The notes beneath the pieces are model-generated. The model saw only the letters and a program-made list of their open reading frames with translations. It had not been told where the DNA came from and ran no database searches. Shown piece by piece: positions 53,493 to 55,612 of a DNA stretch of 64,000 bases. A program made the translations under genes and the position numbers. The DNA comes from Bacteroidales bacterium (GTDB lineage: Bacteria; Bacteroidota; Bacteroidia; Bacteroidales; F082): NCBI GenBank assembly GCA_024709145.1, contig JANJXG010000008.1, positions 1 to 64,000 of the forward strand, given 5' to 3'. The first letter of the stretch is position 1; each line of letters starts with the position of its first letter.

Positions 53493-53971
53493 GCCAATTT
53501 TTTTATTTAATGAAACATTGATAAATTCACGACAAAAGTAAAGTCGGGTCAAAGTCATTAAAAATCAGACATGCCGAAGGTGTCTTTGAGGAGGATCAAA
53601 GCGTTTTTTAAAGTCATGACAGTGAGATTGGTGGTTCGTAAAGTTTTGGTCGCAGGGTCAGGAAGTCCAGGGGTCTCGGGGTCTTTTCTCATCAGAGGGT
53701 CTGGCAATTATGCAAATCCGATCCATCATTCCTAATCCTTATCATTTGGAGCCTAAGGAATTTAGCTTATTAGAGATGAAGATATTCTACCATTCTTCTC
53801 ATAATAATTGGTTACGACTTGGATCAAGCGTGATTCATACAATAAATTGGATTTAGTTCGCAAACATGATAAAGACGGAAAGAAAAATCTTTGCTTTTAA
53901 CAAAAAATTATGAACTTTTAAAAACCTTAAGATCCAACCCAAGATCTGAAAATGAACCAAAACCAATCCAG
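53493..53971. other. intergenic, no gene seen
   Basis: About 480 nt of low-complexity, AT-rich sequence between a barrel gene and the decayed peptidase gene. A 3-prime part upstream of the pseudogene may hold its relict promoter; nothing else is supported. Confidence 0.5.
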
Positions 53972-54387
53972 ATGAAAAATTCATATTTACTGACAATCAT
54001 CCTGCTTTTCTGCACGATCGGTCATTTATCTGCTGATAACGTGAAAGAAGACAAAGCGCGGGTTGCAGCCCAAAACTGGTACCGGCATTATGCACCTGAA
54101 AATAAGAAGTCAGCTTCGGTGGCCAGCTTTTCTGAATACAAGCACAACGAGCGCACTGCTTTCTACATTTACAATTTCGATCAGGAGGGCATTGTGCTGG
54201 TGTCGGCTATTGATGCGGTGACGGCTGTTTTGGGTTATGGTTTTGATCATTCGGCCCACGATGAAATTACCAACAAATCAGGGAGAGGATGGTCATGCTT
54301 GATGTAAGCCATTTAGGAAGAGGCATATATGTAGTTGTAATTAAGAATTCAACTCAAACAGGCAGAAAAAAACTTGTTATCCGGTGA
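53972..54387 (+). pseudogene. internally deleted C10 (streptopain-like) peptidase gene with T9SS tail
   Basis: The frame from 53972 encodes a signal peptide (about 1-20) and a Spi/streptopain-type propeptide (AFYIYNFDQEGIVLVSA, key residues F-x-x-G-x-V-L-V-S-A), then hits a stop at 54305-54307. In the +1-shifted frame starting at 54289-54295 and ending at a TGA at 54385-54387 the sequence reads LDVSHLGRGIYVVVIKN, followed by a basic end KKLVIR, which is a T9SS type A sorting-domain terminus. The whole catalytic domain is therefore missing: an internal deletion has joined prodomain and sorting tail out of frame. Confidence 0.75.
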
Positions 54388-54574: not shown

Positions 54575-55264
54575 TCACCCGTTTCTGCTGATCTTTTCAA
54601 GCATGGCTTTATTGAGCAGGCGCAGGTTTTTGCCGTTGAGGCTGATGAGTCCGTCCTTGCGGAAACGGCTCAGGGTACGTGTCACGCTTTCGCGGCGGGC
54701 GTGGACAAAATCTCCAAGGTCGTTGCGGTTGAGCGGCATCAGGAAACTGTCGTTGCCAAAAATTTCGTTGGCCATAAACAGCAAGGCATCGGCGACCCTT
54801 CCATTGATGTGTTTCTGCGACTGGTTGATGGATCGGTCGAAGAAAGACAGCTCATCCTGGCAAAGGTTGTTGATGATCTCGTTGGCAAACTTACCATTGA
54901 GCATGATCAGTTTTCTGAAGCTGTCGCTGCTGATGAAGCACACATGGGTGGTTTCGAGCGCCGTTACGGCATATTGGTTCAGCTTATTACCCAGCACTGT
55001 CGGAAGGCCGATAAACCGCGGCGGCTTCACCACTTTGAGGATTTGATCGCGGGCCGGACCTGTTTTGTGAACCTTCACCAGCCCCGACTTCACATAGGCC
55101 ACCCCGGTGTGCGGGTTTCCTTCACGGAAAATCTTTTCATTGCGCTGAAAAACGATGGCCGAGCAATTGTTTTGTAAAATGAAAAGCTCAGCCGGATCGA
55201 GCACCTCAACGGCACATGACTTGAACTGACAGGTTTCACAATTCGTTTTTTCAAGCTGTTTCAT
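54575..55264 (-). CDS. FNR-type Crp/Fnr regulator with four-cysteine Fe-S site
   Basis: Protein of 229 residues. The N-terminus has Cys9, Cys12 and Cys17 (C-x2-C-x4-C), and Cys109 lies in TTHVCFIS, the position of E. coli FNR Cys122, so a 4Fe-4S oxygen-sensing site is likely. A cyclic-nucleotide-like barrel (about 25-120) and a dimer helix precede the DNA-binding domain, whose recognition helix reads RRESVTRTLSRF (191-202). The R-E-x-V-x-R pattern is that of CRP and predicts GTGA half-sites, which are found in its own upstream region. Confidence 0.92.
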   Translation of the reverse strand: MKQLEKTNCETCQFKSCAVEVLDPAELFILQNNCSAIVFQRNEKIFREGNPHTGVAYVKSGLVKVHKTGPARDQILKVVKPPRFIGLPTVLGNKLNQYAVTALETTHVCFISSDSFRKLIMLNGKFANEIINNLCQDELSFFDRSINQSQKHINGRVADALLFMANEIFGNDSFLMPLNRNDLGDFVHARRESVTRTLSRFRKDGLISLNGKNLRLLNKAMLEKISRNG

Positions 55265-55309
55265 TCAATCATCCATTGGTTTCAATCATGGCAAAGTTAA
55301 ATTGTTTTT

Positions 55310-55323
55310 GTGATTGGTATCAC
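55310..55323. promoter_or_regulatory. Crp/Fnr operator 1 (GTGAT-N4-ATCAC)
   Basis: GTGATTGGTATCAC is a perfect inverted repeat with half-sites GTGAT/ATCAC, the CRP/FNR spacing. It lies 46 nt upstream of the FNR-type gene and in the shared divergent region. Confidence 0.7.
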
Positions 55324-55332
55324 CTAAAAACA

Positions 55333-55346
55333 GTGATACAGATCAC
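55333..55346. promoter_or_regulatory. Crp/Fnr operator 2 (GTGAT-N4-ATCAC)
   Basis: GTGATACAGATCAC repeats the same half-sites, centred 23 nt from operator 1 and 57 nt upstream of the small membrane protein start at 55403. Confidence 0.7.
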
Positions 55347-55402
55347 ATTGTTGAGATCAATCCGGGCAGCTGTGGTTGTATGTTTGTAAAAAATCAAAAG
55401 CC

Positions 55403-55612
55403 ATGTGTAAATTTGGAACATTCTTCTCAAAAATCGGCCTGGGATCCTTCTTTCTGGCCATACTGACCATGGTGGCCGGCTGGCTGTTTCTGGAAGTGAA
55501 CGTTTGTATCGCAGCCATGTTTCTGATGAGTTTCTCAGCCCTCAACTTCATCCTGTGTATGTTTTGCAATTGTGCCCACAACCGGCGAAACAAGACACTG
55601 GGCGTTGAATAA
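55403..55612 (+). CDS. 69-residue cysteine-rich two-helix membrane protein
   Basis: From the ATG at 55403 the product has 69 residues with two membrane helices (about 12-30 and 36-56) and a C-terminal C-x2-C-x-C motif (Cys52, Cys55, Cys57) followed by a basic tail; Cys2 and Cys35 are also present. A frame from 55376 is open but adds only a polar leader. It is divergent from the FNR-type gene and directly downstream of twin operators, so it is very probably an FNR-regulated gene. Family not recognised. Confidence 0.72.
   Translation: MCKFGTFFSKIGLGSFFLAILTMVAGWLFLEVNVCIAAMFLMSFSALNFILCMFCNCAHNRRNKTLGVE

Follow-up and report, generated by a model that had tools for sequence, protein, structure and literature searches.

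A Crp/Fnr-family Regulator with FNR-type Cysteines, a CRP-like Recognition Helix, and Conserved Candidate Twin Operators Shared with a Small Cysteine-rich Protein Gene in Bacteroidales

RESULTS

Organization of the Locus

The window, meaning the whole stretch of DNA analyzed here, comprises 64,000 nucleotides of a Bacteroidales bacterium genome (assembly GCA_024709145.1, contig JANJXG010000008.1, positions 1 to 64,000). The region from 54575 to 55612 contains two divergent genes and the promoter region between them, with the following features.

54575-55264, minus strand: gene for a Crp/Fnr-family regulator of 229 amino acids (open reading frame; Pfam matches; alignment with Escherichia coli FNR and CRP)
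55292-55299, minus strand: probable -7 box of the regulator gene, TAACTTTG (match to the TAnnTTTG consensus, PMC7366714; position kept in 12 of 13 orthologues)
55310-55323, no strand: proximal operator, GTGATTGGTATCAC (exact GTGAT-N4-ATCAC match; conserved)
55333-55346, no strand: distal, shared operator, GTGATACAGATCAC (exact GTGAT-N4-ATCAC match; conserved)
55379-55386, plus strand: TATGTTTG, probable -7 box for the small-protein gene (fits the same consensus; lies 39-40 nt from the shared operator in all 13 orthologues)
55403-55612, plus strand: divergent gene for a hydrophobic, cysteine-rich protein of 69 amino acids (translation; orthologue alignment)

A short open reading frame elsewhere in the window (53891-54307, plus strand) encodes a Spi-type protease-inhibitor prodomain (PF13734) alone; since no protease domain follows, it has the appearance of a truncated or remnant gene.

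Cysteine Content and Fold of the Regulator

The regulator matched PF00027 (59.2 bits), PF13545 (56.8 bits), and PF00325 (35 bits), all above the cut-off, and as judged from its sequence it is a member of the Crp/Fnr superfamily, with a beta-roll of the cyclic-nucleotide-binding type and a Crp-type helix-turn-helix. Scores against the named NCBIfam families Fnr (51 of 228 bits) and FnrL (54 of 300 bits) fell below the curated cut-offs. The AlphaFold model, for which the alignment was shallow, had a mean pLDDT of 33. By sequence, the best match among solved structures was 2GAU (E = 1.1e-17), a Crp/Fnr protein of Porphyromonas gingivalis, also of the Bacteroidales, that is described as effector-independent (PMC12937710).

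Cysteines are present at positions 9, 12, 17, 34, 109, and 135, with none beyond Cys-135. Upon alignment with FNR and CRP from E. coli (MG1655 reference sequences), Cys-9, Cys-12, and Cys-109 occupied the columns of FNR Cys-20, Cys-23, and Cys-122, and Cys-17 fell one column from FNR Cys-29, so that the motif is CX2CX4C and not CX2CX5C. The four cysteines named originally are therefore present, with Cys-17 out of register. Among 30 aligned relatives, Cys-9, Cys-12, Cys-109, and Cys-135 were invariant and Cys-34 was found in 29. Cys-17 was present in all 13 proteins of the close clade, which has lost Cys-34 once, and was replaced by Lys or Arg in the 17 distant relatives, where Cys-9, Cys-12, Cys-34, Cys-109, and Cys-135 are invariant. 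Conservation of Cys-34 and Cys-135 is at least as great as that of Cys-9, Cys-12, Cys-17, and Cys-109. By these alignments, the close-clade regulators look like conventional four-cysteine FNRs; the ligand set is nevertheless uncertain because distant relatives without Cys-17 keep the other five cysteines, and the wider family may use a different set.

At the loci of the distant relatives (L044-L060), the regulator gene often lies near a molybdopterin oxidoreductase-like gene (with a CxxCxxxCWKC-type N terminus) or near genes for rhodanese-like or Rieske/cytochrome b-like proteins, which points to roles in sulfur or other anaerobic respiration.

The Recognition Helix

The recognition helix of the regulator reads R191-E-S-V-T-R196. 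Its Arg-191, Glu-192, and Arg-196 align with the corresponding residues of the CRP helix R-E-T-V-G-R and with Val-208, Glu-209, and Arg-213 of FNR, and the columns of FNR Val-208 and Ser-212 are occupied by Arg-191 and Thr-195. The CRP-like character originally ascribed to this helix was thus borne out by alignment with both E. coli proteins, and Arg, Glu, and Arg at positions 191, 192, and 196 were invariant in all 30 relatives compared.

In CRP, Arg-180 (mature numbering) reads the G of GTGA. The genome containing the window encodes four full Crp/Fnr proteins, of which the window regulator alone has R-E-S-V-T-R, with Arg at the CRP Arg-180 position. One paralogue (C120; L121, G000:C120) has an FNR-like helix, I-E-S-I-A-R, and no equivalent of FNR Cys-122. 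Between its gene and a divergent multihaem cytochrome gene lies an FNR-like site, TTTGACGCAGATCAAA; this pairing of helix and site fits the CRP Arg-180 code, as circumstantial evidence. A second paralogue (C8) has the helix K-E-S-V-T-R and an N-terminal CxxCxxC motif and might bind the same sites as the window regulator.

The operator of Bacillus Fnr is of the CRP type, TGTGA-N6-TCACA, and by analogy this protein offers a precedent for CRP-type sites used by Fe-S FNR proteins. Given this precedent and the invariance of the helix residues in 30 relatives, the R-E-R helix is no peculiarity of the window protein. Bacillus Fnr uses three C-terminal cysteines plus an aspartate to ligate its cluster (PMC3520743); by contrast, the cysteines of the regulator are N-terminal plus Cys-109, and it has no C-terminal CxxCxxxxC.

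Conservation of the Twin Operators

Two GTGAT-N4-ATCAC palindromes centered 23 nt apart had been noted in the divergent promoter region. These are GTGATTGGTATCAC and GTGATACAGATCAC, with centers 23 bp apart, and the window has no other exact match. Among 149 genomes searched from the same family, 13, the genome of the window included, encode the regulator at ≥59% identity (59-100%); the named relatives are metagenome assemblies labelled Bacteroidetes/Bacteroidales. A palindrome pair with 0-2 mismatches, exactly 23 bp apart, was present upstream of the regulator gene in all 13. Loss of both palindromes beside orthologues, raised originally as evidence that would speak against such a system, was not seen. 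At eight representative loci, mean pairwise identity was 0.84 for the operator arms, 0.40 for the N4 spacers, and 0.35 for the flanks, and dinucleotide shuffles of the orthologue upstream regions gave two sites with ≤2 mismatches 23 bp apart in 0 of 20,000 cases. Judged by these comparisons, the twin operators constitute a strong phylogenetic footprint.

Promoter Geometry

In Bacteroides promoters, the -7 element is TAnnTTTG, and TTTG occurs near -33 (PMC7366714). In the window, the center of the distal operator is 39-40 nt upstream of both probable -7 boxes. Its distance from the -7 box of the small gene is 39-40 nt at 13 of 13 loci, and from that of the regulator gene 37-40 nt at 12 of 13. 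With its center 17 nt ahead of the -7 box of the regulator gene (14-17 nt at 12 of 13 loci), the proximal operator covers the -33/spacer region of that gene; relative to the small gene, its center is 62 nt ahead of the -7 box (62-63 nt at the close orthologue loci). In six distant relatives (L045, L048, L052, L055, L058, and L059), a single main operator lies 38-40 nt from the -7 box of the regulator gene. The simplest reading of this geometry is activation from ~39 nt, with the proximal operator a later addition that would restrain the regulator's own promoter.

The Divergent Small Protein

The 69-residue protein probably contains two membrane helices, as judged from its sequence, and had no match in Pfam or NCBIfam. 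Cys-2, Cys-35, Cys-52, and Cys-55 are invariant across nine aligned orthologues. When 148 family genomes were searched with a profile of this protein family, strong scores came from exactly the 13 genomes that have the close regulator, and in each the gene is single-copy and adjoins the regulator gene; given that these genomes represent two genera, the independent co-occurrence events number fewer than 13. Within the genus of the window genome, three genomes lack both genes. Of 17 distant loci, 15 encode a hydrophobic, mostly cysteine-containing protein of similar size in the equivalent divergent position. These proteins resemble those of the close loci in size, hydrophobicity, and cysteines, but homology between the two sets was not established, the close-family profile having missed the distant genes. 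Because the operator is shared, the most reasonable view is that the 69-residue protein is the main target of the regulator and perhaps its functional partner.

In two sister species (L091 3411-5936 and L092 2902-5403), a gene for a di-haem cytochrome c peroxidase (CCP_MauG) lies beyond the small gene, and a gene for a membrane protein-like polypeptide of 60 amino acids follows the regulator gene. Neither gene is at the corresponding place in the window.

Size of the Regulon

The genome contains 16 exact GTGAT-N4-ATCAC palindromes, about twice the 7.6 predicted from independent half-sites (an estimate from 264 kb), and 11 of these lie inside open reading frames. The same was true of 31 of 34 sites examined outside the regulator locus in five sister genomes. 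Given that open reading frames cover ~90% of the DNA examined, the coding location of the exact sites is what chance placement gives. The expected enrichment of the motif in promoters throughout the genome thus failed to appear, and a genome-wide regulon in which the exact palindrome acts as a general promoter signal was rejected. Patterns combining the operator with a -7 box yielded little besides the regulator locus in each genome of its genus. These genome-wide statements rest on pattern searches; a scan allowing one mismatch returned at least 232 sites and was too noisy to use, such that weaker real sites may be missed.

One further exact palindrome of the window genome (G000:C134:5382; L028 5382-5395) has a counterpart in a sister species (G066:C11:1222; L151), in each case with its center ~62 nt upstream of a -7 box. 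The genes that follow encode orthologous 113-residue proteins with 40% identity, and this gene is a probable second target of the regulator, common to the window genome and the one sister species. Orthologues of the 113-residue protein in other genomes, G066 excepted, had no clear operator. In two sister species, G013 (L104, G013:C109) and G075 (L095, G075:C41), an operator lies between a multihaem cytochrome c gene and cydA, which from its sequence we take to encode bd oxidase subunit I. An operator before cydA was found in these two species only; the cydA gene of the window genome has none upstream and was dropped as a target, and the search of that genome revealed no respiratory target.

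As a separate observation, a TTGACATAGATCA site is conserved in four genomes of a sister genus (g9; L071, L079, and L080), with constant spacing to a -7 box. The gene that follows resembles a ResB/CcsA-type cytochrome c biogenesis protein, and the site may belong to another FNR-type protein.

Of the small anaerobic regulon proposed originally, two to four promoters are plausible, but a genome-wide regulon defined by the operator is not supported. On these patterns, the conserved circuit is local and bidirectional, and the regulon in the window genome is very small: the regulator seems to control mainly itself and the neighboring cysteine-rich membrane protein, and not a broad set of genes.

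DISCUSSION

The protein motifs, operators, promoter geometry, conservation, and co-occurrence described above are read directly from the sequence. Together they make it probable that both GTGAT-N4-ATCAC operators, in the promoter region common to the regulator gene and the small gene, are bound by a cysteine-ligated redox/O2 regulator of the FNR type whose base recognition is CRP-like. The agreement between protein and site suggested at the outset was upheld in each of its elements, namely the FNR-type layout of the cysteines, the CRP-like helix, and the GTGAT-type sites. From these features we infer that the regulator binds the twin sites, carries an Fe-S cluster, and responds to O2, together with the sign of its effect at each site, as follows. 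At low O2, the N-terminal cluster would be intact and a regulator dimer would bind the shared operator, from which, ~39-40 nt upstream of both -7 boxes, it would activate both genes. Occupation of the second operator, over the -33/spacer region of the regulator gene, would limit transcription of the regulator, and for the small gene this operator would serve as one more site upstream.

The regulator resembles E. coli FNR, an O2 sensor in which an O2-labile [4Fe-4S] cluster governs dimerization and DNA binding, in its N-terminal CxxC, the later cysteine at the position of Cys-122, the fold family, and the Glu and Arg of the recognition helix. It differs in having CX2CX4C for CX2CX5C, Arg-191 for Val-208, and Thr-195 for Ser-212, that is, R-E-S-V-T-R in place of V-E-x-x-S-R, with GTGAT-N4-ATCAC as candidate operator in place of TTGAT-N4-ATCAA. 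The regulon is large in E. coli, unlike that proposed here. With E. coli CRP it shares the R-E-x-V-x-R helix and GTGA half-sites of the same geometry, but it has an N-terminal cysteine motif and lacks the GE...RS residues of the cyclic-nucleotide phosphate-binding cassette, as seen where CRP GELGLFEEGQERSA aligns with GLPTVL-GNKLNQYA of the regulator. FNR from Acidithiobacillus ferrooxidans keeps Cys-20, Cys-23, and Cys-122 and has no Cys-29 (PMC6659574); the distant relatives likewise have three of the four cysteines, whereas the window regulator has Cys-17 near the Cys-29 position. FNR from Neisseria gonorrhoeae is reported to have a small regulon, the search for which used TTGAT-type sites, and is not known from that work to be coupled with a divergent gene for a small membrane protein (PMC1802743). 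Bacteroides HcpR binds haem (PMC13370916), and no hcp gene was noticed at the regulator locus. The literature, as far as it was covered, yielded no fitting Bacteroidetes FNR of this kind and no small partner; nor did it yield a combination of N-terminal cysteines with CRP-type sites in this Bacteroidales clade, a bidirectional promoter with fixed twin operators, or a co-inherited small membrane protein.

The regulator might instead bind the operators while its cysteines, with Cys-9, Cys-12, Cys-34, Cys-109, and Cys-135 as possible ligands, sense NO, polysulfide/persulfide, or thiol redox and not O2. We consider this possible, if on the unlikely side. The near-complete conservation of those five cysteines (30 of 30 relatives, or 29 of 30 for Cys-34), the Lys or Arg at the Cys-17 position of 17 distant relatives, and the location of several of these beside molybdopterin oxidoreductase, rhodanese-like, and cytochrome genes are in keeping with such a role, but Cys-17, next to the FNR Cys-29 position, is kept throughout the close clade (13 of 13), and the operator precedes cydA, a classical low-O2 target, in two sister species.

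It is improbable that another Crp/Fnr protein is the main occupant of the twin sites and has the local regulator as one of its targets. The C8 paralogue, with its similar helix K-E-S-V-T-R and N-terminal CxxCxxC motif, would be one candidate, but the twin sites adjoin the local regulator gene in all 13 genomes that have it, operator-plus-promoter patterns yield little else in those genomes, and the Arg at the position that in CRP reads the G of GTGA is found in the local regulator only. That the palindromes are chance occurrences beside an ordinary Crp/Fnr gene is effectively refuted by conservation, for although matches with ≤2 mismatches in the window exceed those in shuffled sequence (47 versus 27) and exact sites occur in coding DNA, the 23-bp spacing is fixed in 13 of 13 orthologues and was absent from all 20,000 shuffles, and the operator arms are far better conserved than their flanks (0.84 versus 0.35).

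Binding of both operators by the FNR-type regulator itself is thus the reading that we prefer. A further proposal, which we regard as speculative and doubtful, is that the regulator and the 69-residue protein form one redox module, in which the membrane protein would be a dedicated partner feeding back on the regulator, for example as a membrane redox relay, by tethering the regulator to the membrane, or by assisting the cluster.

The locus provides a clean natural case in the Bacteroidota for the joint reading of a recognition helix, an operator, and the geometry of a promoter. The fixed distance of 39-40 nt between operator and -7 box suggests a position for an FNR/CRP-type activator on a Bacteroidetes promoter. 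It also brings to light a regulator and a small membrane protein that are strictly inherited together, a pairing open to direct testing. Were the two to form one redox module, they would represent a membrane-coupled type of FNR sensor, from a family of the Bacteroidales, that is new to the literature.
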